From the NCBI RefSeq assembly GCF_034424625.1, contig NZ_CP139976.1, positions 1,302,001-1,366,000 on the forward strand: a stretch of DNA of 64,000 nt, written 5' to 3'. The position numbers and the translations under genes are program-made. The notes under the pieces are model-generated. The model searched no databases. It saw nothing but the letters and a program-made list of their open reading frames with translations, and was not told the DNA's origin. Source of the stretch: Janthinobacterium lividum (lineage in GTDB: Bacteria; Pseudomonadota; Gammaproteobacteria; Burkholderiales; Burkholderiaceae_D). The stretch's first letter is position 1, and each line of letters opens with the position of its first letter. This document shows positions 2,404 to 59,542 of the stretch, piece by piece.

Positions 2404-2757
2404 TCAACTCCCGCGATAAGTCGAATACGACCACGGCGATACCACCAGCGGCACGTGGTAGTTCTCGTCTGTATGCGCAATGCCGAAGGACAGGGTGACC
2501 AGGTCGATGAAGCGGGGGGAGGGCAGTTCCACGCCTTGGGCGGCGAAATAGTCTCCTGCATTGAAGACCAGTTCATACTGGCCCGCCTTCATGCTGTCGC
2601 CTTCCAGCAAGGGCGTGCTGCAGCGGCCATCGCTATTGGTCATATCCATCTTCAATAACACTTTGCCTTCCTGCGCGACTGAAAACAGGGCCACCTTGAC
2701 GCCGGCTCCCGGCCTGCCGTGGGCGATATCGAGTACATGCGTGCTGAGTTTTCCCAT
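2404..2757 (-). CDS. uraH: 5-hydroxyisourate hydrolase (transthyretin-like)
   Basis: 117 residues, the normal length for the cytoplasmic transthyretin-related family, which hydrolyses 5-hydroxyisourate to OHCU after urate oxidation. The catalytic set is visible: His7 in STHVLD, Arg45 in SDGRCS, His101 in YHVPL, and the C-terminal signature YRGS with Ser117 last. There is no signal peptide, unlike some enterobacterial homologues. It is divergent from puuE across 121 bases that hold AT-rich dyads. The decarboxylase that follows in the pathway is encoded far away in the uraD-allC fusion (54180-55934). Confidence 0.96.
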   Translation of the reverse strand: MGKLSTHVLDIAHGRPGAGVKVALFSVAQEGKVLLKMDMTNSDGRCSTPLLEGDSMKAGQYELVFNAGDYFAAQGVELPSPRFIDLVTLSFGIAHTDENYHVPLVVSPWSYSTYRGS

Positions 2758-2878
2758 TTGCTATCCTGTATATAGGGTGAGTGAATGTGCTTATCGTGCA
2801 AATCATATACCGGTGACTGCGCCGGGCTATATGATTGGGCATATAGCCAACATTGTCCTCCCATAGGCGCGCCTCCGC
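2758..2878. promoter_or_regulatory. Divergent uraH/puuE control region with AT-rich dyads
   Basis: This 121-base divergent region carries the dyad CATATA (2804-2809) / TATATG (2828-2833), which is extended by AAT..ATT and CCGG/CCGG matches within 2801-2836. The near-palindrome GGCATATAGCC lies at 2838-2848. ATAT half-sites also occur before xdhA and puuD, which suggests a shared regulator. The protein that binds is not known; LysR-type is a guess. Confidence 0.5.
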
Positions 2879-3832
2879 ATGAACAATTACGAACATTATC
2901 CACGCGACTTGATCGGCTATGGCCGCACGCCACCCCATCCGCAATGGCCGGGCAAGGCCCGCATCGCGCTGCAATTCGTCCTCAATTACGAGGAAGGGGC
3001 GGAAAACAGCGTGCTGCATGGCGATCCCGCCTCGGAAACGTTTTTGTCGGAAATGATCGGGGCGGCCGCTTTTCCTGCGCGCCACCTGAGCATGGAGTCG
3101 ATTTATGAATACGGCTCGCGTGCGGGATTATGGCGCTTGCTGCGCATGTTCGAGGAGCGGCGCCTGCCGCTGACCGTATTCGGCGTCTCGATGGCCTTGA
3201 AACGCAATCCGGAGGCGGTGGCGGCTTTCCAGGAACTGGGGCATGAAATCGCCTGCCATGGCTTGCGCTGGATTTCCTATCAAAACATGGACGAGGCGAC
3301 GGAACGCGAACACATGCGCGAAGCCGTGCAGATCATCCGCGAATTGACGGGTTCGGCCCCGCAAGGCTGGTACACGGGGCGCGATTCTCCGAATACGCGC
3401 AAACTGGTGGTCGAGCATGGCGGTTTCCGCTACGACGCCGATTATTACGGCGATGATCTGCCATTCTGGGACAAGGTAGCGTACACGGATGCCTCCGGCA
3501 TGCCTGCCGTGCAGCCGCAACTGATCGTGCCCTACACTCTGGATACGAACGACATGCGCTTTGCCGCCATGCAGGGCTTTAATTCGGGCACGCAGTTTTT
3601 TGATTACTTGAAGGATGCCTTCGATGTGCTGTATGCGGAAGGCGATCCGAACGGCTTGAATCAGCCGAAGATGCTGTCCGTGGGCTTGCATTGCCGCCTG
3701 GTAGGACGGCCTGGCCGCGCGGCCGCCCTGGCGCGCTTTCTCGACTATGTGCAGGGCCATGAGCATGTGTGGATCACGCGCCGCATCGATATTGCCGAAC
3801 ATTGGCACGCGACGCATCCCTGTACCGGTTGA
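2879..3832 (+). CDS. puuE: Allantoinase PuuE (polysaccharide-deacetylase fold)
   Basis: 317 residues matching the cofactor-independent PuuE-type allantoinase (hydrolyses allantoin to allantoate), a NodB/polysaccharide-deacetylase relative unrelated to the metal amidohydrolase allantoinases. Typical features are the start MNNYEHYPRDLIGYG, VLNYEEGAEN (about 36-45), the segment GHEIACHGLRW in the middle, and GWYTGRDSPNTRKL. The start ATG directly follows the divergent control region. It sits 99 bases before xdhA; that gap has its own dyads, so xdhA probably has a separate promoter. Confidence 0.94.
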   Translation: MNNYEHYPRDLIGYGRTPPHPQWPGKARIALQFVLNYEEGAENSVLHGDPASETFLSEMIGAAAFPARHLSMESIYEYGSRAGLWRLLRMFEERRLPLTVFGVSMALKRNPEAVAAFQELGHEIACHGLRWISYQNMDEATEREHMREAVQIIRELTGSAPQGWYTGRDSPNTRKLVVEHGGFRYDADYYGDDLPFWDKVAYTDASGMPAVQPQLIVPYTLDTNDMRFAAMQGFNSGTQFFDYLKDAFDVLYAEGDPNGLNQPKMLSVGLHCRLVGRPGRAAALARFLDYVQGHEHVWITRRIDIAEHWHATHPCTG

Positions 3833-3862: not shown

Positions 3863-3925
3863 CAGTCTTTGCATATAGTTGTCCCATATGCTGGTGTTAA
3901 TCTCCTATACTGGGACTATACCGAG
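3863..3925 (+). promoter_or_regulatory. Control region of the xdhABC-guaD operon
   Basis: It contains the dyad GCATAT (3871-3876) / ATATGC (3886-3891) with a 9-base spacer, then CTATACTGGGACTATAC further on. GCATATAG is shared with the uraH/puuE region. GAGG at about 3922 serves as the ribosome-binding site of xdhA. The regulator is unknown. Confidence 0.45.
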
Positions 3926-3931
3926 GCCAGC

Positions 3932-5398
3932 ATGTCAGAACCGATCCGCTTTTACTACCGTGGTGCCGTACAGGAAGTACGCAACGCCGCCCCTACGCAG
4001 ACTGTGTTGCAGCACCTGCGCGAGGATTTGCATTGCACGGGCACCAAGGAAGGCTGCGCCGAAGGCGATTGCGGCGCCTGCACCGTCGTCATCGGCAGCC
4101 TGGTGGATGGGCAAATCGAGATGAAGGCCGTCAACGCCTGCATCCAGCTCACGCCTACACTCGATGGCAAGGCCCTGTTTTCCGTGGAAGACTTGCAACA
4201 GCCCGACGGCGCCCTGCACCCGGTGCAGCAGGCGATGGTCGAGTGTCACGGTTCCCAGTGCGGTTTTTGCACGCCCGGTTTTGTCATGTCCTTGTGGGGC
4301 ATGTATCTGAAAAAAAATGGCGAGACACCCACGCGCGGCGAAATCGACGATACCCTGTCGGGCAATCTGTGCCGCTGCACGGGCTACCGGCCCATCATCG
4401 ATGCAGCCAGACGCATGGGCGAATTGCCGCACGTCACGTTCGATCGCGATGCCGTGGCGCAGCAATTGCAGGCGTTGCAGCGCAGCAGCCTGACTACGTA
4501 TGAACATGGCGGCCAGCAATTTCACGCGCCGCGCAGCATCGATGAACTGGTGGCACTGCGCGCGGCAAAGCCGCAAGCCTGCCTGCTGGCCGGTTCCACC
4601 GACGTGGGCTTGTGGGTGACCAAGCAATTGCGCGACCTGGGCGACATCATTTATTTGGGCAACGTCGCTGCGCTGAAAACCATCGTCGTGGACGATGGCA
4701 AGTTGCACATCGGCGCCGGCGCCAGCCTCAACGATGCCTATGCGGCGCTGTGCCAGCATTACCCGGAGGAATTGTCGGAACTATGGCAACGCTTTGCTTC
4801 CTTGCCGATCCGCAACGCAGGCACTTTGGGCGGCAATGTGGCCAATGGTTCCCCCATCGGCGACTCGATGCCGTGGCTGATTGCGCTGGGCAGCGAGATC
4901 GTGCTGCGCGGCCCAGGCGGCCAGCGGATCATGCCGCTGGAAAACTTCTATCTGGCTTATCAAAAGAAAGATATGCAGCCAGGCGAATTCGTCGAAGCCG
5001 TGCGCGTGCCCTTGCCGCGTGCCGGTGTGCAATTCCGCACGTATAAACTGGCGAAACGCTTCGACCAGGATATTTCGGCCGTGTGCGCCGCGTTTGCTTT
5101 TGAGCTCGACGGTGAGCGCATCGTCGATGCGCGCATCGCCTTTGGCGGCATGGCGGCCACGCCGCAGCGCGCCGCGCAAACGGAAGCGTTTTTGCGCGGA
5201 CAAGCATGGACGGAAGACAATCTGGTCATCGCCATGCGCTTGCTGGCCGACGATTACGCGCCCCTGTCGGACATGCGCGCGTCGAATACTTACCGCATGA
5301 CGACGGCGCAAAACCTGTTGCGCCGCTTCTGGCTGGAAACACGCCCCAGTGCGCCGCTGTTGCGCACTGCCGTCAACGCCTACGCTTGCCGCGCCTGA
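3932..5398 (+). CDS. xdhA: Xanthine dehydrogenase small subunit (2Fe-2S and FAD)
   Basis: 488 residues. It oxidises hypoxanthine/xanthine to urate together with XdhB. The N-terminal ferredoxin-like domain has cluster cysteines 42, 47, 50 (GCAEGDCGACT) and 70; the second 2Fe-2S domain has CGFCTPGF and CRCTGYRP. The FAD domain of the CO-dehydrogenase type follows, with LLAGSTDVG and RNAGTLGGNVANGSPIGD. I chose the ATG at 3932 (MSEPIRFYYRG) because a GAGG site precedes it; the frame stays open upstream without coding character. The stop lies 10 bases before xdhB. Confidence 0.96.
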   Translation: MSEPIRFYYRGAVQEVRNAAPTQTVLQHLREDLHCTGTKEGCAEGDCGACTVVIGSLVDGQIEMKAVNACIQLTPTLDGKALFSVEDLQQPDGALHPVQQAMVECHGSQCGFCTPGFVMSLWGMYLKKNGETPTRGEIDDTLSGNLCRCTGYRPIIDAARRMGELPHVTFDRDAVAQQLQALQRSSLTTYEHGGQQFHAPRSIDELVALRAAKPQACLLAGSTDVGLWVTKQLRDLGDIIYLGNVAALKTIVVDDGKLHIGAGASLNDAYAALCQHYPEELSELWQRFASLPIRNAGTLGGNVANGSPIGDSMPWLIALGSEIVLRGPGGQRIMPLENFYLAYQKKDMQPGEFVEAVRVPLPRAGVQFRTYKLAKRFDQDISAVCAAFAFELDGERIVDARIAFGGMAATPQRAAQTEAFLRGQAWTEDNLVIAMRLLADDYAPLSDMRASNTYRMTTAQNLLRRFWLETRPSAPLLRTAVNAYACRA

Positions 5399-5408
5399 AA
5401 GGACCAGC

Positions 5409-7754
5409 ATGAACCATCCTGCCACGCCCGAACTGCAAGCGGCCGCCTGGGCCGCCGTGGGCAAGCCCAGTCCGCATGAATCGGCGCAATTGCATGTGCT
5501 GGGGCAAGCCACATACACGGACGATATCGCCGAGTTGCAAGGTACCTTGCACGCGGCGCTGGGCCTGTCGCAAAAGCCCCATGCACGCATCACGGCCATG
5601 GATTTGTCGGCCGTGCGCAGTGCGAACGGTGTCGCCGCCGTCTACACGGCGCAGGACATTCCCGGCACCAATGACTGCGGCCCGATCATCCATGACGATC
5701 CCATCCTGGCTGCGGAACTGGTGCAATACGTGGGCCAGCCCATCTTCATCGTGGTGGCCGATACGCACGACCATGCGCGCCGCGCCGCCCGCCTGGCACA
5801 GGTATCGTACGAGGAATTGCCCGCGATCATGACGCCGCAAGCGGCCAAGGCCGCGCAATCATACGTGCTGCCGCCGATGCAGCTGACACGCGGCGATTAT
5901 CAGGCGGCGTTCGAGAAGGCGCCGCATGTGGTCAAGGGCCAGCTGTATGTAGGTGGCCAGGAACAGTTTTATCTGGAAGGACAGATTTCCTACGCCATCC
6001 CGAAGGAAGCGCAAGGCATGCTGGTGCTGTGTTCGACCCAGCATCCGAGCGAGATGCAGCACGTGGTGGCGCATGCGCTGGGCGTGCATTCGCACAACAT
6101 CACCGTCGAATGCCGGCGCATGGGCGGCGGTTTTGGCGGCAAGGAATCGCAGTCGGCCCTGTGGGCGGCGGCGGCATCGATTGCGGCGGCCAAACTGAGG
6201 CGACCCGTGAAATTGCGCGCCGACCGCGATGACGACATGCTGGTGACGGGCAAGCGCCACTGTTTCTACTATGAATACGAAGTGGGCTACGACGATGAGG
6301 GCAGGATACTTGCCGCCAAGGTCGATATGACCACGCGCGCCGGTTACTCGGCGGACTTGTCCGGCCCCGTCGCCACGCGCGCCGTCTGCCACTTCGACAA
6401 CACATATTACCTGTCCGACGTGGATATCCGCGCCGCCTGCGGCAAGACGAATACCCAGTCGAACACGGCTTTCCGGGGCTTTGGCGGGCCGCAGGGCGCC
6501 ATTGCCATCGAGTATGTGATCGATGAAATCGCCCGCCATTTGCAACGCGATGCGCTCGATATCCGCCTGCTCAATTTCTATGGGCGCAACGATACCGAGG
6601 GGCGCAATGTCACGCCGTATGGGCAGACCATCGTCGACAACGTCATCCACGATCTCGTCGCTGAGCTAGAGGAGAGCAGCGACTACCGCGCGCGCCGCCG
6701 CGCCATCGACGCCTTCAATGAGGCCAGCCCGATCCTGAAGAAGGGCCTGGCGTTCACGCCGCTGAAATTCGGCATCGCCTTCAACGTCACGCATCTGAAC
6801 CAGGCCGGTGCCTTGGTCCACGTGTATGTGGATGGCTCCGTACTGGTCAACCATGGCGGCACGGAAATGGGGCAGGGCATCAATACCAAGGTGATGCAAG
6901 TGGTGGCGCACGAACTGGGGCTGGACCTGGAGCGCGTACGGGCCACGGCCACCGATACCAGCAAGGTGGCGAACACGTCGGCCACGGCGGCGTCCACCGG
7001 CGCCGACCTGAATGGCAAGGCGGCGCAGGATGCGGCGCGGCAGATCCGTGAACGCCTGGCCGATTACGCGGTCAAACTGTACGGCGGCGACGTTGCTGCA
7101 GTGCGCTTCTTCAATAACCATATCCACGTGCATGGCCATGTCGTCGCGTTTGCCGAGCTGGTGCAGAAGGCTTATCTGGCCCGGGTGCAACTGTGGTCGG
7201 ACGGCTTTTATGCCACGCCTGGCCTGTCGTGGGATGCGAAGACGATGAAGGGCCATCCTTTTTCCTACTATGCGTATGGCGCGGCAGTGGCTGAAGTGGT
7301 GGTCGATACCTTGACGGGGGAATGGAAGCTGCTGCGTGCGGACGCCTTGTACGATGCTGGCCAGTCATTGAATCCCGCGATTGATCTGGGTCAGGTGGAA
7401 GGCGCATTTATCCAGGGCATGGGTTGGCTGACGACGGAGCAGCTGTGGTGGAACGCGGCGGGCAAGCTGATGACGCACGCGCCATCGACATACAAAATTC
7501 CCGGCATTTCCGATTGCCCCGAAGATTTTCGCGTCAAGCTGTTCCAGAACCGCAACGTGGAAGACAGCATCCACCGCTCGAAAGCCGTGGGCGAACCGCC
7601 GTTGCTGCTGCCGTTCTCCGTCTTCTTCGCCATTCGCGACGCCATTTCCAGCGTGGGCCATCACGCCGTGCAGCCACCGCTGAATGCCCCCGCTACCAGC
7701 GAGGAAATCCTCAAGGCGGTCATGGCCGTGCAAGCGGCGCATGCCGGCGCCTAG
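5409..7754 (+). CDS. xdhB: Xanthine dehydrogenase large subunit (molybdopterin-binding)
   Basis: 781 residues, the usual size for bacterial XdhB. Molybdenum-cofactor motifs are present: GGGFGGKES, FRGFGGPQGA and GGTEMGQGINTK. The catalytic glutamate is Glu729 in KAVGEPPLLLP. The ATG at 5409 follows GAAAGGA, while the frame upstream overlaps xdhA. It is cotranscribed with xdhA and xdhC (9-base gap). Confidence 0.96.
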   Translation: MNHPATPELQAAAWAAVGKPSPHESAQLHVLGQATYTDDIAELQGTLHAALGLSQKPHARITAMDLSAVRSANGVAAVYTAQDIPGTNDCGPIIHDDPILAAELVQYVGQPIFIVVADTHDHARRAARLAQVSYEELPAIMTPQAAKAAQSYVLPPMQLTRGDYQAAFEKAPHVVKGQLYVGGQEQFYLEGQISYAIPKEAQGMLVLCSTQHPSEMQHVVAHALGVHSHNITVECRRMGGGFGGKESQSALWAAAASIAAAKLRRPVKLRADRDDDMLVTGKRHCFYYEYEVGYDDEGRILAAKVDMTTRAGYSADLSGPVATRAVCHFDNTYYLSDVDIRAACGKTNTQSNTAFRGFGGPQGAIAIEYVIDEIARHLQRDALDIRLLNFYGRNDTEGRNVTPYGQTIVDNVIHDLVAELEESSDYRARRRAIDAFNEASPILKKGLAFTPLKFGIAFNVTHLNQAGALVHVYVDGSVLVNHGGTEMGQGINTKVMQVVAHELGLDLERVRATATDTSKVANTSATAASTGADLNGKAAQDAARQIRERLADYAVKLYGGDVAAVRFFNNHIHVHGHVVAFAELVQKAYLARVQLWSDGFYATPGLSWDAKTMKGHPFSYYAYGAAVAEVVVDTLTGEWKLLRADALYDAGQSLNPAIDLGQVEGAFIQGMGWLTTEQLWWNAAGKLMTHAPSTYKIPGISDCPEDFRVKLFQNRNVEDSIHRSKAVGEPPLLLPFSVFFAIRDAISSVGHHAVQPPLNAPATSEEILKAVMAVQAAHAGA

Positions 7755-7763: not shown

Positions 7764-8831
7764 ATGAGCGACTGGCTGACAGCAATCGAGAATGACACGC
7801 AGGCATCCGTGCTGGTGACGGTCGCCCTGGTGGAAGGCTCGGGGCCGCGCGAGGCGGGCGCGAAGATGCGCGTCACCCTTGAAGGCCAGGCGGACACCAT
7901 CGGTGGCGGCCACCTGGAATTGCGCGCCGTGGAAATCGCCAAGACCATGCTGGCCACGGCAGAGACCCATGCGCGGCTCGAGCGTTTTGCGCTGGGCCCC
8001 AGCCTGGGACAATGCTGCGGTGGCGTCGTCCACCTGGCGTTCGAGTATGTCGATGCCAGCTTGAACGAATTGCTGGCCGCCTTGCGCGAACGGCGCCAGC
8101 ATGACAGCTGGAAAGTCACGGCGCTTGACGGCGATGCCGCGTCGGCCCTGTTCGATGCTGCCGGTAAACTGATTGCCGGCGCACCAGGCCAGGCACCCAA
8201 TACGTTCGCGCGCGAACGCAGTACCCATGTCGCTCAGGATGGCAAGGGGCGGCGCTGGCTGGTCGACCCCTGCCTGGCGCCGCGCGCGCACCTGACCTTG
8301 TTTGGCGCCGGTCACGTGGGTGCCGCCATCGTGCGCGCGCTGGCTGATTTACCCTGCAATATCACCTGGGTTGATGAGCGCGAAGACATGTTTCCCCTGC
8401 AAATGCCGGATAACGTGCGCATCGCCGCCACCGACACGCCCGAGGAGTTTGTTGCCATGGCGCCGCCGGGCGGCAGTTTTCTCGTCATGACGCACAGCCA
8501 TGCGCTCGATCAACACTTGACGCAAGCCATCATGGAACGCAAGGATGCGGGCTGGTTCGGCTTGATCGGTTCGCACACGAAACGCAAGCAATTCGAGCAC
8601 CGCCTGCAGGCGCGCGGCGTACCGGATGAGCGCATTGCCGCCATGGTCTGTCCGATCGGCATGCCCGGCATCCGCAACAAGGCGCCGGCCGTGATCGCCG
8701 CTTCCGTTGCCTGTCAACTACTCATGGTGTGGGAGGAAGCGGCCGCGGCCGCCCTGGCCGCACCGCTGCGGCTGGCTACTGCCAGTGCGCCACCGCGACG
8801 CGAGAAACGCGCCGCCATTCACCCGTTATAG
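7764..8831 (+). CDS. xdhC: Xanthine dehydrogenase accessory protein XdhC
   Basis: 355 residues. XdhC binds and inserts the sulfurated molybdenum cofactor into xanthine dehydrogenase and is not part of the mature enzyme. It has an N-terminal XdhC/CoxI domain (LVEGSGPREAGAKM; LGQCCGGVVHLAFE) and a C-terminal Rossmann domain beginning LTLFGAGHVGAAIVRAL at about residue 177, then GLIGSHTKRKQFEHRL. It stands directly behind xdhB, the standard order. Confidence 0.95.
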   Translation: MSDWLTAIENDTQASVLVTVALVEGSGPREAGAKMRVTLEGQADTIGGGHLELRAVEIAKTMLATAETHARLERFALGPSLGQCCGGVVHLAFEYVDASLNELLAALRERRQHDSWKVTALDGDAASALFDAAGKLIAGAPGQAPNTFARERSTHVAQDGKGRRWLVDPCLAPRAHLTLFGAGHVGAAIVRALADLPCNITWVDEREDMFPLQMPDNVRIAATDTPEEFVAMAPPGGSFLVMTHSHALDQHLTQAIMERKDAGWFGLIGSHTKRKQFEHRLQARGVPDERIAAMVCPIGMPGIRNKAPAVIAASVACQLLMVWEEAAAAALAAPLRLATASAPPRREKRAAIHPL

Positions 8832-8840: not shown

Positions 8841-10157
8841 ATGCCGATAGTTCCTGCCACATTGCAAGCTTACCGTGCCAGCTTGCTGCACTTTCACGCC
8901 GATCCCGCTTTCACCGAGGAGGCGCACGCCTGGCATGCGGACGGCTTGCTGATCGTGGCCGACGGCAAGGTCGTGGCCGCTGGCGATTATGCATCGCTGC
9001 AACCGACTTTGCCGCCAGGTACCGAGATCGTCGATTACCGCGGCAAGCTGATCGTGCCCGGCTTTATCGACACGCATCTGCATTTTCCGCAGACGGAAAT
9101 GATCGCCTCGCCTGCCCCGGGTTTGCTGCCATGGCTGGAGACGTACACCTTCCCTACCGAGCGCGCGTTTGAGAATCCCGAGCATGCGCGCAACGTGGCC
9201 GAGTTTTTCCTCGATGAACTGCTGCGCTGCGGCACCACCACGGCCATGGTGTATGGCAGCGTGCATCCGCAATCGGTCGATGCCTTCTTTGGCGCCAGCG
9301 ATGCGCGCGGCTTGCGCATGGTGGCGGGCAAGGTCATGATGGACCGCAACTGTCCCGAGTTCCTGCGCGACACGGCCGAGTCGGGCGCGCGCGAAAGCGA
9401 AGAGCTGATCCGCCGCTGGCACAAGCACGGCCGCTCGCTGTATGCGATCACGCCCCGTTTCGTGCCGACATCCACGAATGAACAGATGCACTTGGCGGGC
9501 GAACTGGCGCGCGCCTATCCGGATACGTATTTGCAGACCCACGTATCGGAAAACGAGGATGAATGCCGCTGGGTGCGCGAACTGCATCCGCAGGCGCGCA
9601 GCTACCTCGATGTGTATGACCAGTACGGCATGCTGCGCCCGCGCGCCATGTTTGGCCACTGCATCTGGCTCGACGAGCACGACCGCGCACGCATGGCGGA
9701 AACGTCCTCGGCGGCTGCCATTTGTCCTACGTCAAACCTGTTCCTCGGTAGCGGCCTGTTCGATTTCGAGCGGGCCGATGCGGCGAAAGTGCTGCTGTCG
9801 CTGGCGACCGATGTGGGCGGCGGCACCTCGTTCTCGATGTTGCAAACCATGAACGAAGCCTATAAAGTAGCACGCTTGAAAGGCAGCTATCTGCCCGCCT
9901 TGCGCATGTTTTACCTGGCGACCTTGGGCGCCGCGCGCGCCATGCAGCTGGAAGGCACCCTCGGCAATTTTACGGCAGGCACGGAAGCGGATTTTATTGT
10001 GCTCGACAAGCAATCGACGCCGTTGCTCGAACGCCGCACGGCCGGCTGTCAAAGCCTGGAGGAATTGCTGTTTGCCTTTGCGCTGCTGGGCGACGACCGC
10101 GCCGTGGCCGCCACCTATTCAGGCGGGCAATGCGTGCATGTGCGGGGGCAGGGCTGA
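8841..10157 (+). CDS. guaD: Guanine deaminase
   Basis: 438 residues of the amidohydrolase superfamily. It deaminates guanine to xanthine and so feeds XdhAB. The metal motif DTHLHFPQTEM has His79 and His81, followed by the guanine-deaminase-specific LLPWLETYTFPTE. HVSEN, the histidine in FGHCIWL, and the metal aspartate of ATDVGGGTSFSM also fit. Nine bases separate it from xdhC, so it belongs to the same operon. Confidence 0.95.
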   Translation: MPIVPATLQAYRASLLHFHADPAFTEEAHAWHADGLLIVADGKVVAAGDYASLQPTLPPGTEIVDYRGKLIVPGFIDTHLHFPQTEMIASPAPGLLPWLETYTFPTERAFENPEHARNVAEFFLDELLRCGTTTAMVYGSVHPQSVDAFFGASDARGLRMVAGKVMMDRNCPEFLRDTAESGARESEELIRRWHKHGRSLYAITPRFVPTSTNEQMHLAGELARAYPDTYLQTHVSENEDECRWVRELHPQARSYLDVYDQYGMLRPRAMFGHCIWLDEHDRARMAETSSAAAICPTSNLFLGSGLFDFERADAAKVLLSLATDVGGGTSFSMLQTMNEAYKVARLKGSYLPALRMFYLATLGAARAMQLEGTLGNFTAGTEADFIVLDKQSTPLLERRTAGCQSLEELLFAFALLGDDRAVAATYSGGQCVHVRGQG

Positions 10158-14595: not shown

Positions 14596-14643
14596 TCGAC
14601 GCTGACGCGCAGCCTGCAGGCCAGGCTGCGCGCGATGTGTTGC

Positions 14644-14672
14644 AACGGGCCTCAGGGCCCGTTTTTCTTTTC
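14644..14672 (+). terminator. Rho-independent terminator behind the TonB receptor gene
   Basis: Hairpin AACGGGCC / GGCCCGTT followed by TTTCTTTTC. A second GC hairpin (CGCAGCCTG/CAGGCTGCG) lies just upstream. Confidence 0.85.
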
Positions 14673-14753
14673 TGGCGGCGTTGTGCAGCCGGACCTTGTT
14701 TAACCCGTTTGCGCAATGCCGTACCCCGGCCGTTGCGCTATGCTGCGAAGCCT

Positions 14754-17687: not shown

Positions 17688-17689
17688 AC

Positions 17690-18771: not shown

Positions 18772-18797
18772 AAAGCGGCCTGCGGGCCGCTTTTTTC
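18772..18797. terminator. Bidirectional terminator between nuclease and DeoR genes
   Basis: AAGCGGCC (18773-18780) / GGCCGCTT with a T-run on the + side and A's on the other. The stem ends at the stop codon of the convergent DeoR-family gene. Confidence 0.85.
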
Positions 18798-19560: not shown

Positions 19561-19578
19561 GGTTTTTCTTGTTAATTC

Positions 19579-19606
19579 TTGATATTGCACGAGTTTGCAT
19601 GATAAA
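19579..19606 (+). promoter_or_regulatory. Candidate promoter of the NudK-fusion gene
   Basis: TTGATA (19579-19584) and GATAAA (19601-19606) separated by 16 bases in the DeoR/NudK divergent gap. Each hexamer matches the consensus only in part. AAGGAG follows just before the start codon. Confidence 0.4.
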
Positions 19607-19635
19607 GTCGGAAAATACAAGCACAAGGAGACGAT

Positions 19636-21705: not shown

Positions 21706-21709
21706 GGTG

Positions 21710-24339: not shown

Positions 24340-24396
24340 GGAAACGCGCCGCGCGGAGACTGGCCCCGGCGGCGCGCTAAAAGATACGGAGAAAAA

Positions 24397-26678: not shown

Positions 26679-26763
26679 GCTTTCCTTGGCGTTGCGTGTT
26701 GCTAGGCGATGGAACGGCGCGCGGACCCGTAAAGGCGCGCGCGCTTTCTTTACAGCAGTCCTA

Positions 26764-28853: not shown

Positions 28854-28871
28854 AAGGTTTTCGCTGAGGTT

Positions 28872-29054: not shown

Positions 29055-29107
29055 AAGAAAAATGGTATTTGCCATACATATTCCGTTTGATGCATAGTGG
29101 CGGCAAA

Positions 29108-34892: not shown

Positions 34893-34913
34893 TAAGTCAC
34901 CAGCGTTACAAAG

Positions 34914-34948
34914 CTGGGGTCAGATCCGCAGGGACTGGCCCCAGATCT
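34914..34948. repeat. GGGGTC-type palindromic intergenic repeat, copy 2
   Basis: CTGGGGTCAGATC (34914 on) pairs with GGCCCCAGATCT (34937-34948) around a short loop between the ALDH16 and deoA genes. It is related to the copies at 36306 and 45601. Confidence 0.6.
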
Positions 34949-34966
34949 CATGATTGGAGTTATTCC

Positions 34967-36345: not shown

Positions 36346-36374
36346 CCTTGCGGGTTTTACAGGTAAATAATCAA

Positions 36375-39164
<2,790 letters not shown>

Positions 39165-50019: not shown

Positions 50020-52912
<2,893 letters not shown>

Positions 52913-52922
52913 GGAGTTGACG

Positions 52923-54158
52923 ATGGATGAATTGCGTATCAATGGCGAGCGCCTGTGGGCAGCCCTGATGGAGCTGGCGCAGATCGGCGCGACAGCGAAG
53001 GGCGGCGTCAAGCGCCTGGCCCTGACGGACCTGGACAAGCAGGGCCGCGACCTGGTGGTGGGATGGGGCCGCGAAGCGGGCATGAGCATCACGATCGACC
53101 AGATCGGCAATGTCTTCATGCGCCGCGACGGCGCCGACAACAGCCTGCCGCCCGTGATGACGGGCAGCCATATCGACACGCAACCCACGGGTGGCAAGTT
53201 CGATGGCAATTACGGCGTGCTGGCGGGCCTGGAAGTGGTGCGCACCCTGAACGACTTGAAAATCAAGACGCAGGCGCCCATCGAGGTGGCCTTCTGGACC
53301 AACGAGGAGGGTTCGCGCTTCGTGCCCGTGATGATGGGTTCCGGCGTATTTTGCGGCGCCTTCTCGCTGGAGACGGCGTATGCGGCCAAGGATACCGAGG
53401 GGAAAACCGTGGGCGAGGAACTGGCGCGCATCGGCTACAAAGGCGAGCAGGTGCCGGGAAACCATCCCATCGGCGCCTATTTTGAAACGCATATCGAGCA
53501 GGGACCCGTGCTGGAAGACGCCGATAAAGTCATTGGCGTGGTACCGGCCGTGATGGGCCTGTCGTGGTACGACTGCGTGGTAACGGGCATGGAAGCGCAT
53601 GCTGGCCCCACCCCCATGGGATTGCGCAAGGATGCGCTGCAGGTGGCCACGACGATCATGCAGGAAGTGGTGGCGATTGCCAACCGCTACCCGCCGTATG
53701 GCCGCGGCACGGTGGGCATGGTGCAGGTCTTCCCGAACAGCCGTAACGTGATCCCCGGCGAAGTCACATTCAGCATCGACCTGCGCAATGTGAACGACGA
53801 ACTGCTCAACACCATGCATGGCGAGATCACGGCCTTCATCGATGCCACGCGTATTGCTACGGGACTGGATATATCTCTTGAACGTGTTTCCTATTACCCG
53901 CCATGCCCGTTCCATCCGGACTGCGTGGGCGCCGTGCGCAACGCCACGGAAAAGCTGGGCTACTCGGTGATGGACGTGGTGTCCGGCGCCGGACACGATG
54001 CCATCTACGCGGCCCGGCTGGCGCCGGCCGGCATGATCTTCGTGCCGTGCAAGGATGGCATCAGCCACAATGAAATCGAAGACGCCAAGCCCGAGCACCT
54101 GGAAGCGGGCTGCAATGTCCTGCTGCACGCGATGCTGGAGCGGGCCGTGGCCGTGTAG
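52923..54158 (+). CDS. Beta-ureidopropionase / N-carbamoyl amino-acid hydrolase (M20 type)
   Basis: 411 residues of the HyuC/AllC-like M20 amidohydrolases. It probably hydrolyses N-carbamoyl-beta-alanine to beta-alanine, CO2 and ammonia, the third step after PreTA and dihydropyrimidinase. Dimetal motifs are MTGSHIDTQPTGGKFDGNYG, WTNEEGSRFVP, FETHIEQGPVLE and GAGHDAIYAARL. The ATG at 52923 follows AAGGAGTTG, 10 bases after hydA. It is the last gene of the pyrimidine operon and faces the uraD-allC gene. Confidence 0.93.
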   Translation: MDELRINGERLWAALMELAQIGATAKGGVKRLALTDLDKQGRDLVVGWGREAGMSITIDQIGNVFMRRDGADNSLPPVMTGSHIDTQPTGGKFDGNYGVLAGLEVVRTLNDLKIKTQAPIEVAFWTNEEGSRFVPVMMGSGVFCGAFSLETAYAAKDTEGKTVGEELARIGYKGEQVPGNHPIGAYFETHIEQGPVLEDADKVIGVVPAVMGLSWYDCVVTGMEAHAGPTPMGLRKDALQVATTIMQEVVAIANRYPPYGRGTVGMVQVFPNSRNVIPGEVTFSIDLRNVNDELLNTMHGEITAFIDATRIATGLDISLERVSYYPPCPFHPDCVGAVRNATEKLGYSVMDVVSGAGHDAIYAARLAPAGMIFVPCKDGISHNEIEDAKPEHLEAGCNVLLHAMLERAVAV

Positions 54159-54166: not shown

Positions 54167-54192
54167 GCCCATGCCCGCTTCAGGGCTTGGGC
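54167..54192. terminator. Possible bidirectional hairpin between convergent genes
   Basis: GCCCATGCCC / GGGCTTGGGC around GCTTCA between the ureidopropionase and uraD-allC stop codons. It has no T-run, so this is weak support. Confidence 0.3.
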
Positions 54193-55934
54193 TGGAAGTT
54201 GCGCAGGAACGCCAGCAGCGCGCGCGCCGCGATGTCGGCGTCGTCCGCCGTCATGGTTTCCAGTGGGTTGTGGCTGATGCCGCCATTGCCGCAGCGGGTA
54301 AACAGCATGGCCACGTCGGTGATGGCGGCCATGGCCATGGCGTCGTGGCCGGCGCCAGACAGCAGCGCATACGGTTCGATGCCGACCGATTCCACGGCCT
54401 GCGCCAGCTGCGCCATCAGCCATGGCGCGCATGGCGCGGCACGCGCCGACAGCAGCAGTTCCAGCTGATAGTCGATCTGGCGCCGCGCGCAGATGGCGGC
54501 GATGCCATCGAGAATATCGTCAACGGCCGCCTGGCGTACCGCGTCAACGGCCGCGCGGATGTCGAGCGACAGGGTGCAGGCGCCGGCGATCACGTTGACG
54601 GAGCCGTTGGGCACGTGCAGCTGCCCTACCGTGCCCACCAGCGCCTCGCCCTGGTTGCAGCGCTGTTCCACCAGCAGGATGATTTCGGCTGCCGCGCTGG
54701 CGGCATCCTTGCGCATGGTCATGGGTGTGGTGCCCGCGTGGCTGGCCACGCCGCCAAGATTGACCAGGTAGCGCGAGCTGCCGGCAATCGCCGTGACGAT
54801 CCCCAGCGGCAGGTCGCGTTCCAGCAGTACGGGACCCTGCTCGATATGCACTTCCACATAACCGAGCAAGTCGGCGGGATCGCGCGCGATGGCGCCGATG
54901 GCGCTTGCCTCGTGGCCGGCGGCGGCCAGCGCGTCGCGCATGCTCAAGCCATCCGCATCCACCTGTTCCAGCAGCGATACGTCGAACTTGCCCGTGACAG
55001 CCGTGCTGCCCAAAAACGTGCTCTTGAAGCGCACGCCTTCTTCCTCGGCGAAGCCGACGATCTCGAAGTGGAACGGCAGTTTTTCGCCCCGCTCATGCAG
55101 GTGGCGCACGACGGCGATGGGCAGCACGATGCCCAGGCGGCCATCGTACTTGCCGCCGTTGCGCACCGTGTCGTAATGCGATCCCGTCATCAGGGTTTTT
55201 GCGTCGGGCGCGTCGGACAGATAGCGCCCGACGACATTGCCGACGGCGTCGATGTGCACCTGCATGCCCGCATCCCGCATCCATTCGGCCAGCTGCGCGG
55301 CCGTTTTCTGGTGCGCCGGCGTCAGGTAGGCGCACGTCAGGTTGTAATCGCTGTCGCTCCAGGCCGCCAGCGTTTCGGCCTGCTGCATGATGGCCGGGCC
55401 GAAGTCCAGGCGCACGTCGAACAAGTCGTTCAGGCGCAGCTCGGCGATGCGCTTGATCTGCCGCAGCGACTCGGCCAGTTCATCGGCGCGCCGGTTTTTC
55501 AGGCGCCGCGCAAACGTGGCGATGATGTCCTGGCGCGTCAAGCCTTCGCCCGTCGGGCCCTTGACGGCCAGGATGAAGGGAAAGCCGAACTTGGCGTTGT
55601 AGTCGTCGTTCAGGCGCTGCAGGGTGGCGAATTCATCGGCGCTGCACAGGTTCAGGCCGGACTTGGCCTGCTCGCGCGTCGATTCCGCCGTCAGCTGCCC
55701 TGCGATGGCGGCCTTGCCGGCCAGCTCCGGGTGGGCGCGTATCAGCCCCAGCTGCTCTTCGGGCGAGGCATGCGCCAGCACGCGCTGCAGCTCCGTCTTG
55801 AGTGCCGTCAGGCTGGCAAACGGCCGGGCGGGGGCCGCGCGCTGGGCGATCCAGGGCGAGTGTTCGTAGATGCCATGCAGCCGTGCGATAAAGTCTGCCG
55901 GGCTGCCGGCGTTCAGGTCTGAAAGGGTGGTCAT
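54180..55934 (-). CDS. uraD-allC: Fusion of OHCU decarboxylase and allantoate amidohydrolase
   Basis: 584 residues from the ATG at 55934 (MTTLSDLNAGSPADF). Residues 1 to about 170 are an OHCU decarboxylase domain: IYEHSPWIAQRAAPARPFAS, GLIRAHPELAGKAA with the catalytic histidine, and YNAKFGFPFILAVKG. From about 175 an M20 allantoate amidohydrolase follows: LMTGSHYDTVRNGGKYDGRL, GFAEEEGVRFKSTFLGS, VEVHIEQGPVLLERDLPLGI and SGAGHDAMAMA. The polypeptide thus covers OHCU to allantoin and allantoate to ureidoglycine, two non-consecutive steps around PuuE. The two-base accuracy of the join shows a true fusion, with no frameshift visible. Confidence 0.92.
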   Translation of the reverse strand: MTTLSDLNAGSPADFIARLHGIYEHSPWIAQRAAPARPFASLTALKTELQRVLAHASPEEQLGLIRAHPELAGKAAIAGQLTAESTREQAKSGLNLCSADEFATLQRLNDDYNAKFGFPFILAVKGPTGEGLTRQDIIATFARRLKNRRADELAESLRQIKRIAELRLNDLFDVRLDFGPAIMQQAETLAAWSDSDYNLTCAYLTPAHQKTAAQLAEWMRDAGMQVHIDAVGNVVGRYLSDAPDAKTLMTGSHYDTVRNGGKYDGRLGIVLPIAVVRHLHERGEKLPFHFEIVGFAEEEGVRFKSTFLGSTAVTGKFDVSLLEQVDADGLSMRDALAAAGHEASAIGAIARDPADLLGYVEVHIEQGPVLLERDLPLGIVTAIAGSSRYLVNLGGVASHAGTTPMTMRKDAASAAAEIILLVEQRCNQGEALVGTVGQLHVPNGSVNVIAGACTLSLDIRAAVDAVRQAAVDDILDGIAAICARRQIDYQLELLLSARAAPCAPWLMAQLAQAVESVGIEPYALLSGAGHDAMAMAAITDVAMLFTRCGNGGISHNPLETMTADDADIAARALLAFLRNFQPKP

Positions 55935-56007
55935 GGTTTTCCGATCATGCAAGCGGTGATGATAGCGCCCCGTTCCTGCGTCCATTATATGCGCGTGCTG
56001 ATAGCGG

Positions 56008-56946
56008 CTATCGCTGCACCAGCGCCTTGGCGGCCGCGCTGACCTGGTCGCGCAGCCATTTGTGCTCGGGCGCCTGGTGTACGCGCTGGTGCCACAGCTG
56101 GTAAAAGCGCATCGGCGGGAATTTCAGCGGCACGGTATACGTTTTCAGCGGCAGCGTCTTTTCATAGAAGCGCATGAATTGCCGGCCCGTGGTGAGTACC
56201 AGGTCCGTCTGCGTCAGCATGTAGGGGATCAGGCCGAAATACGCCGATTCCACAACCACGTTGCGCTGCAGGTTTTGCCGCTCGAGGAAGGAATCGATCA
56301 CGCCGTGATAGCCGGGCATCATCTGCGACGGCGCCACGTGGGGCAGGCTCAAATAGTCGTCGAGGGTCATGGCGTCGCTGGCCGTGCGCCGCGCATAGGC
56401 GTTTTCCGCATGCATGGCGCAGATGATGGGGTCTTCGAACAGCTTCGAAATGTGCAGATGCGCGGGCGGCTCGTCCCAGTTGGCGATGACCAGGTCCAGG
56501 CCCCCGTCGGAGAGTTGGCGGATATGGTCGATGCCCGGCCCCAGGCTATGCAGCACGACGCGGCTTTTTGGCGAGCCGCGGCGCAGCAGGGCCACCACGT
56601 TGGGCAGGAACTGGCTGTCCAGGTAATCGGGCGCGGCGATATGGAAGGTGCGTGCCTCTTCCTGCGCCACGAACGGCGTCTTCTTGACGAACAGGCTCTC
56701 CGTCTGGTCGAGGATGCGCTTGGCCGGATTGAGCAGGCTTTCGCCATGCTGGGTCGGCACCATGCCGCGCGCGCCGCGCACGAGCAGCGGGTCGCCCGTC
56801 AATTCACGCAGCTTGCGCAAGGAGGCGGAAATCGATGGCTGCGGCTGATTGAGTTTCAGCGCCACGCGCGAGACGTTCTTTTCCACCAGCAGCAGGTAGA
56901 GGATGCGGATCAGGTGCAGGTCGAGGTGTTGCGGCAGGCTGGACAT
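56008..56946 (-). CDS. LysR-family regulator divergent from puuD
   Basis: 312 residues. The HTH region is LDLHLIRILYLLLVEKNVSR with QPQPSISASLRKLRELTGDP, a NodD/LeuO-like subgroup, followed by the effector domain (FHIAAPDYLDSQFLPNVVAL). It is divergent from puuD with a 131-base gap that contains a GTATAT/ATATAC dyad. Purine-pathway control is the likely role; ligand unknown. Confidence 0.9.
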   Translation of the reverse strand: MSSLPQHLDLHLIRILYLLLVEKNVSRVALKLNQPQPSISASLRKLRELTGDPLLVRGARGMVPTQHGESLLNPAKRILDQTESLFVKKTPFVAQEEARTFHIAAPDYLDSQFLPNVVALLRRGSPKSRVVLHSLGPGIDHIRQLSDGGLDLVIANWDEPPAHLHISKLFEDPIICAMHAENAYARRTASDAMTLDDYLSLPHVAPSQMMPGYHGVIDSFLERQNLQRNVVVESAYFGLIPYMLTQTDLVLTTGRQFMRFYEKTLPLKTYTVPLKFPPMRFYQLWHQRVHQAPEHKWLRDQVSAAAKALVQR

Positions 56947-57077: not shown

Positions 57078-58310
57078 ATGGAAGTATTTGCCTACCTGAT
57101 CCCGTACGGCCTTGAGTGGCTGAACCTGATCGTCCGCTGGCTGCACGTCATCACGGGCATCGCCTGGATCGGTGCTTCCTTCTATTTCGTCTGGCTCGAT
57201 AACTCGATCCGCCCGCCCGCGCCCGGCTCCGAACTGGCGAAGAAGGGCGTGTCGGGAGAACTGTGGGCCGTGCATGGCGGCGGTTTCTACAACCCGCAAA
57301 AATACCTGGTGGCGCCCGCCGAACTGCCGAAGGAACTGCACTGGTTCAAATGGGAAGCGTATTCGACCTGGCTGTCCGGTTTCGCGCTACTGACCATCGC
57401 GTATTATTTCAATGCCCAGGCCATGATGATCGACAAATCCGTGGCGGACATCTCCAGCGGGCAGGCAGTCGGTATCGGCATCGCCACCCTCGTCATCGGC
57501 TGGACCGTGTACGATTTGCTGTGCAGGTCAACATTAGCGCAATATGAACTGTGGTTCGGCGTGACCGTGTTCGCGCTGATCGTCGGCGCCGCGTACGTGC
57601 TCACGCATTTGCTCAGCGGACGCGCCGCCTATATCCATGTGGGCGCCATGATCGGCACCATCATGGTGGCCAATGTGCTGATGCTGATCATTCCCGGCCA
57701 GCGCAAGATGGTCGAGGCCATGGCCGCCGGCAAGCTGCCCGATCCCAAGCATGGCCTGAAAGCCAAGCAGCGCAGCGTGCATAACAATTATTTTACCTTG
57801 CCGGTGCTGTTCATCATGATCAGCAACCATTATGCGATGACCTACCGGAACGACCACGCATGGCTGGTGCTGGCGCTGATCATGGCGGCCGGCGTCTTCA
57901 TCCGCCACTTTTTCAACCTGCGCCACAAGGGAAGAGTGGAATGGCGCTATCCGGCCATCGGCGTGGCCCTGTTGCTGGCCGTAGCTATCGCCATCGCGCC
58001 GAAAGCGCCCGTGGCCGTGGCGGCCGCGCCGGCGGTGGATCCGGCCGCGCAATTCAAGAGCGTGCATGCCATCATCGCCCAGCGCTGCGCCACCTGTCAT
58101 TCGGCCCAGCCCACGCAACCGGGTTTCGCCACGGCGCCGGCCGGCATGATGCTGGATAATGAAACTGAAATCCGCCAGCACGCGGCGCAAATCTACAAGC
58201 AGGCCATCGAATTGAAGGCCATGCCGATCGGGAACCTGACCAATATGACGGAGGCCGAGCGCAGCGAACTTGGCGCCTGGCTGCAACAGACCATGCAAGG
58301 AGCAAAATGA
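57078..58310 (+). CDS. puuD: Membrane urate hydroxylase PuuD with cytochrome c domain
   Basis: 410 residues. It oxidises urate to 5-hydroxyisourate, passing electrons to a fused c-type cytochrome rather than making peroxide. Residues 1-310 hold about eight membrane helices with the family motifs RWLHVITGIAWIGASFYFVW, ELWAVHGGGFYNPQKY and HNNYFTLPVLFIMISNH. A linker rich in Ala/Pro/Val leads to the haem motif CATCH (Cys337, Cys340, His341) and a likely axial methionine in KAMPIGNLT. GAGGAAA lies before the ATG. The stop overlaps the M20 gene start by 4 bases. Confidence 0.95.
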   Translation: MEVFAYLIPYGLEWLNLIVRWLHVITGIAWIGASFYFVWLDNSIRPPAPGSELAKKGVSGELWAVHGGGFYNPQKYLVAPAELPKELHWFKWEAYSTWLSGFALLTIAYYFNAQAMMIDKSVADISSGQAVGIGIATLVIGWTVYDLLCRSTLAQYELWFGVTVFALIVGAAYVLTHLLSGRAAYIHVGAMIGTIMVANVLMLIIPGQRKMVEAMAAGKLPDPKHGLKAKQRSVHNNYFTLPVLFIMISNHYAMTYRNDHAWLVLALIMAAGVFIRHFFNLRHKGRVEWRYPAIGVALLLAVAIAIAPKAPVAVAAAPAVDPAAQFKSVHAIIAQRCATCHSAQPTQPGFATAPAGMMLDNETEIRQHAAQIYKQAIELKAMPIGNLTNMTEAERSELGAWLQQTMQGAK

Positions 58311-59542
58311 CAACGCACGCAGAAAAAATCACGGCCTGGATCGATGATCACTTCGACGAGGAAGTCGCATTTTTACAGAAGGTGGTGCAGCAGCCGACGG
58401 ATACGCCGCCCGGCAACAACGCGCCCCATGCGGAACTGGTGGCGCAGCTGCTGCAGGCGTATGGCTGGCAGGCGGAAAAGCACGCCGTCCCAAACGATGA
58501 GGTGGAAGCGTACGGCATGCAAAGCATCACCAATTTGATCGTGCGCCGGCCGTATACGGCAGGCGGGCCGACCGTGGCCCTGAATGCGCATGGCGACGTG
58601 GTGCCGCCCGGCGACAACTGGACGTATCCGCCGTATGGCGGCCAGATCGACGCCGGCTACATGTATGGCCGCGCGACGGCCGTCTCGAAAGGCGATTTCG
58701 CCACCTATGTATTTGCCGCCCGCGCGCTCGAAGCGCTGGGCATTCCACTCAAAGGCCAGCTTGAGCTGCACTTCACGTATGACGAGGAATTCGGTGGCTT
58801 GCTGGGGCCGGGCTGGCTGCTGGAACAGCAGCTGACGAAGCCCGATTTCGTCATCGCCGCCGGTTTCAGCTACGGCATCGTCACGGCGCACAACGCCTGC
58901 CTGCAGCTGGAAATCACCGTGCACGGCAAGGCTGGCCATGGTTCCATGCCGGAGACGGGCCATGACGCGCTGCAGGCGGCCAACAAGATACTCAACGCCA
59001 TCTACGGCCAGTTGCCGGAGCTGAAAAAGATCAAATCCAAAGTGGCTGGCATCGACTCGCCCACCATGCTGGTGGGGCGCATCGACGGCGGCACGAATAC
59101 CAATGTGGTGCCGGGCAAGGTCGTCATGAAGATGGACCGCCGCATGATTCCCGAAGAAGACCCGGTGGCGGTGGAAGCGCAGGTGCGCGCGCTGATCGAA
59201 GACGCCGTGCGGGGCGAGCCTGGCATCCGCATCGAGATCCGCCGCCTGCTGCTGTCGCACGCGCTGCGACCCTTGCCCGGTTCCGAACAACTGGTCGGCA
59301 GCCTGCAAAAGAATGCGCAAGCCATCCTCGGCGAGACGATTCCCGCCGTCGGCACGCCCCTGTATGCGGACGCGCGCCTGTATGGCGAGCGGGGCATCCC
59401 CGCCGTGCTGTATGGCGCCGGGCCGCGCACGGTGCCCGAATCGAACGCGAAGAAGGCTGACGAGCGCCTGGCGCTCGATGATTTGCGCAGGGCCAGCAAG
59501 ATCGTCGCCCTGACCCTGCTGGACTTCCTGGGCCAGAAATAA
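58307..59542 (+). CDS. M20-family hydrolase with altered metal-site residues
   Basis: 411 residues of the ArgE/DapE/CPG2 group, translationally coupled to puuD (ATGA overlap). LNAHGDVVPPGDNW keeps the first His-x-Asp, FTYDEEFGGLLG keeps the Glu pair, and HGKAGHGSMPETG the dimer histidine. The usual bridging Asp motif (GRGxxDxKGG) reads GRATAVSKGDFATY, with Val in the Asp position, and the final histidine ligand region reads ESNAKKADERL. The substrate is unknown. Coupling to puuD suggests a purine-derived ureido compound, but deacetylase or peptidase roles are possible. Confidence 0.85.
   Translation: MTTHAEKITAWIDDHFDEEVAFLQKVVQQPTDTPPGNNAPHAELVAQLLQAYGWQAEKHAVPNDEVEAYGMQSITNLIVRRPYTAGGPTVALNAHGDVVPPGDNWTYPPYGGQIDAGYMYGRATAVSKGDFATYVFAARALEALGIPLKGQLELHFTYDEEFGGLLGPGWLLEQQLTKPDFVIAAGFSYGIVTAHNACLQLEITVHGKAGHGSMPETGHDALQAANKILNAIYGQLPELKKIKSKVAGIDSPTMLVGRIDGGTNTNVVPGKVVMKMDRRMIPEEDPVAVEAQVRALIEDAVRGEPGIRIEIRRLLLSHALRPLPGSEQLVGSLQKNAQAILGETIPAVGTPLYADARLYGERGIPAVLYGAGPRTVPESNAKKADERLALDDLRRASKIVALTLLDFLGQK

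Follow-up and report, generated by a model that had tools for sequence, protein, structure and literature searches.

The stretch analysed here is a window of 64 kb, labelled G000:C1:1302001-1366000. It begins inside an rRNA operon and carries, from the 5-hydroxyisourate (HIU) hydrolase gene at 2404 to the end of an M20 hydrolase gene at 59542, a run of genes that we call the island. A gene set for nucleic-acid utilisation is encoded together in it, with a nuclease and a nucleotidase (export as judged by eye), an importer, phosphorylases and the enzymes of base catabolism. A purine module (2404-10157: HIU hydrolase, PuuE, xanthine dehydrogenase, XdhC and guanine deaminase) is followed by a putatively exported set (10201-18760: an adenosine-deaminase-family protein, a TonB receptor, a 5'-nucleotidase, a PLD protein and an S1/P1 nuclease), an ABC importer, a pseudouridine and deo module (26764-38004: PsuG, a PfkB kinase, purine nucleoside phosphorylase (PNP), DeoB, DeoC, the aldehyde dehydrogenase ALDH16, DeoA, Cdd and a 403-residue protein), a reductive pyrimidine module (41914-54158) and a second purine module (54180-59542: a UraD-M20 fusion, a LysR regulator, PuuD and an M20 hydrolase). 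Pfam was scanned with 58 distinct open reading frames (ORFs) of the window, some of which are rival frames, and NCBIfam with 30 of these. On the gene content and its conservation, we consider it probable that the island is a conserved supercluster for the degradation of extracellular nucleic acid to central metabolites, maintained as a unit in one branch of the family, and that ALDH16 acts in it as a dedicated, acetaldehyde-oxidising partner of DeoC. The DeoC-ALDH16 unit is the strongest new point within the island and the part most worth the attention of specialists.

The DeoC-ALDH16 pair

The dehydrogenase of the deo run (32511-34892, 793 residues) aligns from residue 3 to residue 792 with the solved chains 6mvr (990 bits) and 6mvu (985 bits), and the next chains among the matches listed cover its first part only, to about residue 487. 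Judged by these alignments, it is an ALDH16. The chain 6mvr, titled only 'Aldehyde dehydrogenase' in the structure match, is presumably LsALDH16 of Loktanella, on which Liu and Tanner reportedly worked (2019). The catalytic residues C299/C300, E265 and N168 are the same letters in 80/80 ALDH16 loci, these loci being the best 80 of 585 named ones in this and every other count over 80, and the C-terminal ALDH-like part aligns to 6mvr without the CCAG motif. The nearest named relatives are from Janthinobacterium, with an ALDH16 97-98 % identical (best 80 of 585) and a nucleoside deaminase 94 % identical (among the matches listed), from which we take the genus of the host to be Janthinobacterium.

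DeoC was found at most 1.5 kb upstream of ALDH16 and on the same strand in 77 of the 80 loci, the exceptions being L064 (DeoC 2.5 kb upstream), L090 (none within 10 kb) and L097 (contig starting 1.9 kb upstream). The record titles of the 80 loci include Pseudomonadota, Bacteroidetes, Acidobacteria, Gemmatimonadota, Myxococcales and Opitutales. An even draw of 299 genomes from the phylum, searched for ALDH16 at E 1e-180 (at most three candidates scored per genome) and for window-type DeoC at E 1e-60, gave ALDH16 in 27 genomes of 19 genera, and window-type DeoC was found in these 27 and in no others. The two genes were adjacent on the same strand, with gaps of at most 831 bases, in 26 of these; the remaining case, G253, lies at a contig end. 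DeoC scored over the TIGR00126 cut-off in 77/299 genomes, of which 50 have other DeoC types only, and ALDH16 was found in none of these 50. Since the genomes of the draw are related, the 77 DeoC genomes do not represent independent events. The pairing of ALDH16 with one type of DeoC is near-absolute in the genomes searched. The distances of DeoC and ALDH16 were also correlated (0.85 for 76 loci, 0.81 for 60; in each case none of 2000 shuffles reached as high a value), but little weight is given to this correlation because species ancestry is still in the signal. No paper on a link between ALDH16 and DeoC was found among the matches listed from the open-licence PubMed Central literature; two that contain both terms are, to judge by their titles, an anaphylaxis review and a mouse expression data set.

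The N-terminus of the window DeoC is longer than in most solved chains, the best of which align from query residue 53 and chain residue 8. K219 and K255, which we take to be the active-site lysines, were kept in 77/77 loci where the match covered both. The window DeoC may be akin to animal DERA, but no chain named human DERA was among its structure matches.

The pair can be lost from the island as a whole. In four genomes of the same genus (G003, G009, G011 and G013) DeoB is followed by DeoA after 15-98 bases and both DeoC and ALDH16 are gone (4/4), the sole ALDH16 of these genomes being 61-62 % identical and encoded outside the island. The remainder of the island, from HIU hydrolase to M20, is present in G013 with the TonB gene unmatched, and the part read in G011, from PNP to dihydropyrimidinase, is likewise present. 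In G011 and G013, the two distant loci read, ALDH16 is preceded by a DeoC matching at 66 %; the G011 locus is likely a deoxyribose operon. One arrangement, in which DeoC and ALDH16 are accompanied by a weak match to an ABC ATPase, is common to G013, G087 and G184. In the G011 locus (L239), genes named by eye as RbsD/FucU-like, ribokinase-like and sugar ABC-transporter genes follow the pair.

The products of DeoC are glyceraldehyde 3-phosphate and acetaldehyde. Passages of PMC6365646 give the same two products. The human member of the family, ALDH16A1, is described in parts of PMC8160307 and PMC10650815 as a pseudoenzyme without the catalytic residues, and the latter, a review, lists its substrate as unknown and links one variant to gout. 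It is possible, but in our judgement distinctly unlikely, that ALDH16 oxidises some other aldehyde, as the entry for the human substrate would allow, and that its link to DeoC reflects a common nucleoside operon and not an acetaldehyde step. The pair persists in changed neighbourhoods, within a nucleoside operon in the window and beside sugar-transporter-like genes in G011, and in several of the 80 loci (e.g. L065, L066, L067 and L072) DeoC and ALDH16 are the sole matches to window genes.

A split form of ALDH16 was seen in some Bacteroidota. Of 198 genomes drawn (at most five candidates scored per genome), two have a fused ALDH16 and in 14 a match of 44-47 % is interrupted by in-frame stops; all 16 fall among the 42 genomes with DeoC. 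A catalytic-half ALDH (49-64 %) is encoded at most 1.5 kb downstream of DeoC in 26 of 30 loci fetched from these 42; the exceptions are L249 (ALDH16 2.5 kb away), L262, L275 (contig end) and L276. Among the 20 genomes fetched of the 26 without an ALDH16 match, 17 have a catalytic-half-like ALDH next door. Four longer stretches with a broken match have the order deoC, ALDH, half-ALDH, and a fifth (G674) has the fused form. For three of the four, the ORFs listed are distinct genes, which in L281:3997-7319 encode 305, 501 and 289 residues, and the half-ALDH of L281 matches the Aldedh profile at positions 8-231 of 461 only.

The island in related genomes

Conservation was searched in 61 genomes (37 of the same genus, the window's own included, and 24 from other families of the order) and, with ALDH16, PreA and PuuD as markers, in 145 genomes of the family. 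In the former search ALDH16 (E 1e-150 or better) was found in 36 genomes, of which 35 belong to the same genus, and the two same-genus genomes without a match, G014 and G026, are 82 and 88 % complete, respectively. In the family, 39 genomes have ALDH16, 42 PreA and 91 PuuD, and by our tally all three lie on a single contig within about 42 kb in 27, which represent five genera (g1, g28, g35, g42 and g64). In the other 12 of the 39, the markers are spread over more than one contig in seven (G198, G165, G176, G169, G068, G148 and G078), the first four of which still have PreA and PuuD at most 22 kb from each other; G181 has no PreA match, G013 has its ALDH16 elsewhere, and G087, G158 and G184 have a distant ALDH16 and no PreA. 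PreA occurs without ALDH16 in seven family genomes and is near PuuD in none of them (different contigs in five, 3.6 Mb apart in one, PuuD absent in one).

Gene order was read over at most 80 kb in 15 genomes (3 of the same genus and 12 others) picked for ALDH16 on a long contig, two of them (G016 and G027) from the 61-genome search and the remainder from the family draw. The order and strand of the modules present were kept in all 15. The ABC importer, PsuG, PsuK, PNP, DeoB, DeoC, DeoA, Cdd, 5'-nucleotidase and S1/P1 nuclease were found in every one. Guanine deaminase and the adenosine-deaminase-family protein were found in all but G027 (14), PreA and the UraD fusion likewise in 14 genomes, XdhB in 13 (not G027 and G198) and PuuD in 13 (the contig of G198 stops short of it, and in G125 it lies just beyond the stretch). 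The PLD protein (7), the DeoR/NUDIX pair (5), the 403-residue protein (12) and the M19 peptidase (2) are variable members. An earlier note on this stretch, which had asked for a comparison across the family, had named a chance order confined to this strain as a refuting case; with the three markers together in 27/145 family genomes and the order kept in 15/15 genomes read, such a one-strain chance is rejected, as the order recurs across five genera. A mobile genomic island was likewise considered and rejected: no tRNA was found in the window and no integrase family among the 58 Pfam-scanned ORFs, and the order is common to five genera.

It could be argued that the modules are mere neighbours, i.e. 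that purine, deo and reductive pyrimidine clusters, all of them common on their own, were joined once in an ancestor and kept together by slow rearrangement. The separate regulators, with no common operator seen in the window genome, agree with this, as does the dispensability of the pyrimidine module, which is absent in G181; moreover, PreA lies within 42 kb on the same contig in only 32 of the 91 family genomes with PuuD, some of the assemblies being fragmented. However, insertions of several kb between modules in relatives have left the module order unchanged, and ORFs flanking the island in the window genome (40 kb per side) had no match in 10 of the 15 stretches and two to eight ORFs matched in the other five. 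This flank control is weak because many stretches show few kb of flank. Taking both sides together, we find neighbourhood alone a possible, though somewhat improbable, explanation.

A TonB-receptor gene stands before the 5'-nucleotidase in 16/16 islands, the window included, but its kind varies. Twelve islands have a receptor like those of G004 (1144 residues) and G163 (1145 residues, with a carboxypeptidase-regulatory domain and an outer-membrane barrel; Oar-like in our own naming), and four (G000, G016, G104 and G193) have the window type; at the cut-offs used, none of the 16 has both kinds or neither. The two kinds are swapped at the same slot, as seen at 12235-14595 of the window and at L161:13828-17265. 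In 9/16 islands, an extra TonB receptor is encoded in the space from the ABC genes to the LysR gene. The conserved slot with its two unlike receptor types offers candidates for the outer-membrane uptake of nucleic-acid pieces.

The purine route yields nitrogen as ureido compounds and ammonia, and the exported enzymes could serve the removal of phosphate or adenosine. The set might accordingly be one for scavenging of nitrogen and purines and for turnover of the cell's own nucleotides rather than for growth on extracellular nucleic acid. We regard this as rather unlikely, considering that the S1/P1 nuclease and 5'-nucleotidase genes (15/15) and the deaminase-family gene (14/15) are found beside the receptor and upstream of the ABC importer.

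Genes of the island

The gene functions that the earlier note had read from motifs are borne out by Pfam and NCBIfam profile matches from 2404 to 59542 (Table 1). The positions are those of the ORFs, several of which start too early.

Table 1 Features of the island with their positions in the window and the profile matches
Feature	Position	Strand	Match
5-Hydroxyisourate hydrolase	2404..2757	-	TIGR02962 above cut-off
Allantoinase PuuE	2879..3832	+	TIGR03212 526 bits, cut-off 425
Xanthine dehydrogenase small subunit, true start probably later	3869..5398	+	TIGR02963 above cut-off
Xanthine dehydrogenase molybdopterin (large) subunit	5349..7754	+	TIGR02965 above cut-off
XdhC accessory protein	7764..8831	+	TIGR02964 above cut-off
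Guanine deaminase	8841..10157	+	TIGR02967 above cut-off
Divergent adenosine-deaminase-family protein, signal-like N-terminus	10201..11703	+	PF00962; under NCBIfam adenosine deaminase cut-offs
TonB-dependent receptor	12235..14595	+	PF00593, PF07715
5'-Nucleotidase, lipoprotein-like start at about 14751 by eye	14637..16439	+	PF02872
PLD protein with two HKD motifs, signal-like start	16458..17687	+	PF13091
S1/P1 nuclease, signal-like start	17603..18760	+	PF02265
DeoR-family regulator	18796..19698	-	PF00455, PF08220
BMP-type ABC importer: two permeases, ATPase, binding protein	20734..25392	-	PF02653 (twice), PF00005, PF02608
LysR regulator, true start probably later	25776..26861	-	PF00126, PF03466
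Pseudouridine-5'-phosphate glycosidase PsuG (Indigoidine_A family)	26764..27693	-	PF04227 432 bits
Helix-turn-helix (HTH) and PfkB kinase, PsuK-like, true start probably near 28880	27696..29282	-	PF00294
Purine/xanthosine phosphorylase (PNP)	29392..30231	+	TIGR01699 above cut-off
Phosphopentomutase DeoB	30349..31542	+	TIGR01696 above cut-off
Deoxyribose-5-phosphate aldolase DeoC	31539..32498	+	TIGR00126 144 bits, cut-off 117
ALDH16-family aldehyde dehydrogenase	32511..34892	+	6mvr
Thymidine phosphorylase DeoA, true start near 34967	34733..36289	+	TIGR02643 above cut-off
Cytidine deaminase Cdd	36348..36782	+	TIGR01354 above cut-off
403-residue deaminase-like protein, C-terminal half without a family	36793..38004	+	PF00383 at residues 8-111; no NCBIfam match
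RutR-like TetR regulator	41914..42612	-	PF08362; under RutR cut-offs
MocR-type regulator	42623..44080	-	PF00392 and PF00155
Omega-aminotransferase AptA	44280..45596	+	NF052567 above cut-off
CoA-acylating methylmalonate-semialdehyde dehydrogenase (MMSDH)	45679..47181	+	TIGR01722 above cut-off
Dihydropyrimidine dehydrogenase PreT and PreA	47228..49875	+	PreT PF14691, PF07992; PreA NF006183 above cut-off
NCS1 nucleobase carrier	50020..51504	+	TIGR00800 above cut-off
Dihydropyrimidinase	51521..52912	+	TIGR02033 above cut-off
M20 hydantoinase/carbamoylase-type amidase, probable beta-ureidopropionase	52875..54158	+	TIGR01879 above cut-off
Fused OHCU decarboxylase (UraD) and M20 (allantoate amidohydrolase-like)	54180..55985	-	PF09349, PF01546
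LysR regulator	56008..56946	-	PF00126, PF03466
PuuD-type membrane urate oxidase	57078..58310	+	PF06181 464 bits
M20 hydrolase, ArgE/DapE type, adjoins PuuD	58307..59542	+	PF01546; just under TIGR01910 cut-off

The signal-like and lipoprotein-like starts were judged by eye, without a predictor, and export is putative. The best solved match of the PLD protein is the phospholipase 7e0m (residues 19-401), with weaker matches to the PLD3/PLD4 exonucleases. Because its nearest solved chain is a phospholipase and the exonucleases are more distant, we regard a nuclease function of this protein as possible. The NUDIX protein at 19636-20592 has a C-terminal third that by eye is of nucleoside-deoxyribosyltransferase type, with no Pfam match there at E 0.01.

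In the PfkB kinase the HTH is visible once the frame is trimmed, and the score is under the NCBIfam cut-off for pseudouridine kinase. The Pfam matches of the 403-residue protein are confined to residues 8-119, with no family for the C-terminal half; a decayed second deaminase domain there is conceivable, though hhalign of the two halves gave it a probability of only 2.8 % over 33 columns. Among the 120 matches listed for this protein, the named ones mostly carry names from this family of bacteria.

For PreT, no NCBIfam model scored above its cut-off. Judged by its genes, the route through AptA and the CoA-acylating semialdehyde dehydrogenase would lead to acyl-CoA. The M20 hydrolase next to PuuD may act on a ureido compound; it is kept at 78-85 % in other genera wherever the stretch extends that far. 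Among the 58 Pfam-scanned ORFs, no uridine phosphorylase, no adenine deaminase and no enzyme that would convert ureidoglycolate to glyoxylate was recognised. The run also contains genes without an evident link to these pathways, encoding an M19 peptidase, a glyoxalase-fold protein and an ice-binding-like PEP-CTERM protein. The last lies at 40944-41900, and G016 shows three matches to it in a row. Past the island, at 61531-63538, an MFS carrier and a DUF2848 protein are encoded, which among the 15 stretches were matched in G004 and G016 only.

Possible role of the island

In the reading that we prefer, putative enzyme activities, transporter substrates and a joint use are added to the observed gene set, gene order and ALDH16-DeoC pairing. 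The exported nucleases, nucleotidase and deaminase would release nucleosides from extracellular nucleic acid, and these would likely enter through the outer-membrane receptor and the BMP-type ABC importer. Phosphorylases, DeoB and DeoC would then split the nucleosides, the bases passing to the reductive pyrimidine and urate/allantoin routes. DeoC would free two of the deoxyribose carbons as acetaldehyde, ALDH16 would oxidise this to acetate, and acetyl-CoA synthetase would make use of the acetate.

The earlier note had suggested that the run is a dedicated system for living on extracellular DNA and RNA, and we find a dedicated system likely. The order is kept, and the exported nuclease and nucleotidase genes lie beside a TonB receptor; the joint action of the parts fared less well, with several regulators, no common operator seen and missing steps. 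A number of observations weigh against the supercluster as we read it. Among the 25 NCBIfam models listed, none was above its cut-off for the window ALDH16. In L090 no DeoC was found as far as 10 kb away and in L097 none on its short contig, and with three candidates at most scored per genome in the phylum draw a very divergent ALDH16 could be missed. As many as 26 of the 42 Bacteroidota genomes with DeoC have no ALDH16 match at the cut-off used, three of the 20 fetched from these have no neighbouring ALDH (L262, L275 at a contig end, and L276), and the second half-ALDH was checked in four stretches only, from genomes outside those 26. Within the island, G181 has no PreA match and passes from Cdd to the UraD fusion without the pyrimidine genes, the purine start is absent from the 80 kb read in G027, and G198 is without xanthine dehydrogenase genes. 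Five regulator genes lie inside the run (DeoR, two LysR, RutR-like TetR and MocR), and a simple palindrome scan of this genome only gave no obvious operator common to the promoters; the longest palindromes, in the gap between HIU hydrolase and PuuE, ahead of the gene for the ABC binding protein and in the gap between the deaminase-family and TonB genes, differ in sequence. Finally, the five genera are close relatives, so that shared ancestry accounts for part of the order.

A more far-reaching view of the pair, which we consider doubtful, is that aldolase and dehydrogenase form a portable unit with a direct hand-over of acetaldehyde from DeoC to ALDH16. The pseudo-ALDH half, a separate gene in some Bacteroidota, would serve as a docking or gating subunit, and the unit would have been swapped whole between nucleoside operons and operons with sugar-type ABC transporters. 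DNA-sugar catabolism would then be the founding role of ALDH16, extending to the ancestor of the human pseudoenzyme ALDH16A1. The hand-over inside a DeoC-ALDH16 complex is speculation.

For the ALDH16 family, of which a bacterial structure has been solved and whose human member has a gout-linked variant, acetaldehyde oxidation is a proposed role that can be tested. The island as a whole provides a gene-ordered model for how bacteria of this family may draw carbon and nitrogen from DNA and RNA outside the cell.

Comparison with known systems

The deo operon of E. coli, deoCABD, serves nucleoside catabolism. The window resembles it in that DeoA, DeoB, DeoC and purine nucleoside phosphorylase are grouped, and differs in the addition of ALDH16, Cdd, the pseudouridine genes, the BMP importer and the purine and reductive pyrimidine modules. 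With LsALDH16 and human ALDH16A1 the window dehydrogenase has the two-part protein in common; unlike the human form it keeps the catalytic residues, and its context suggests a substrate. No description of an island of this kind was found among the matches listed from the open-licence PubMed Central literature.

The nearest precedent is found in the SPU microcompartment loci, which according to passages of PMC4207490 combine DeoC with an aldehyde dehydrogenase, possibly one making acetyl-CoA, and most of whose enzymes fit the degradation of deoxyribose phosphate for DNA catabolism. A microcompartment of this type was rejected for the window, there being no shell-protein family among the 58 Pfam-scanned ORFs. 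Bacterial use of DNA-derived deoxyribose is also the subject of the oxidative pathways in PMC6365646, but as described in parts of that paper, unlike in the window, the deoxyribose itself is oxidised, and the term 'aldehyde dehydrogenase' does not appear anywhere in the text.

As to nucleic-acid degraders, excerpts of PMC10470597 describe Hujiaoplasma as degrading DNA and RNA via nucleases, 5'-nucleotidase and phosphorylases, with a single induced cluster that serves the metabolism of nucleotides and amino acids, and Izemoplasma (parts of PMC8397711) is another such degrader. Both are wall-less, unlike the host of the window, and these excerpts describe no run with all the modules. The SAR11 purine operon, in the passages of PMC11698098, includes PuuD, xanthine dehydrogenase, HiuH, UraD and PuuE among its purine genes, as the window does. 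The same passages assign purine use to SAR11, thymidine use to SAR86 and some of both to SAR116, whereas the window joins both in one run.

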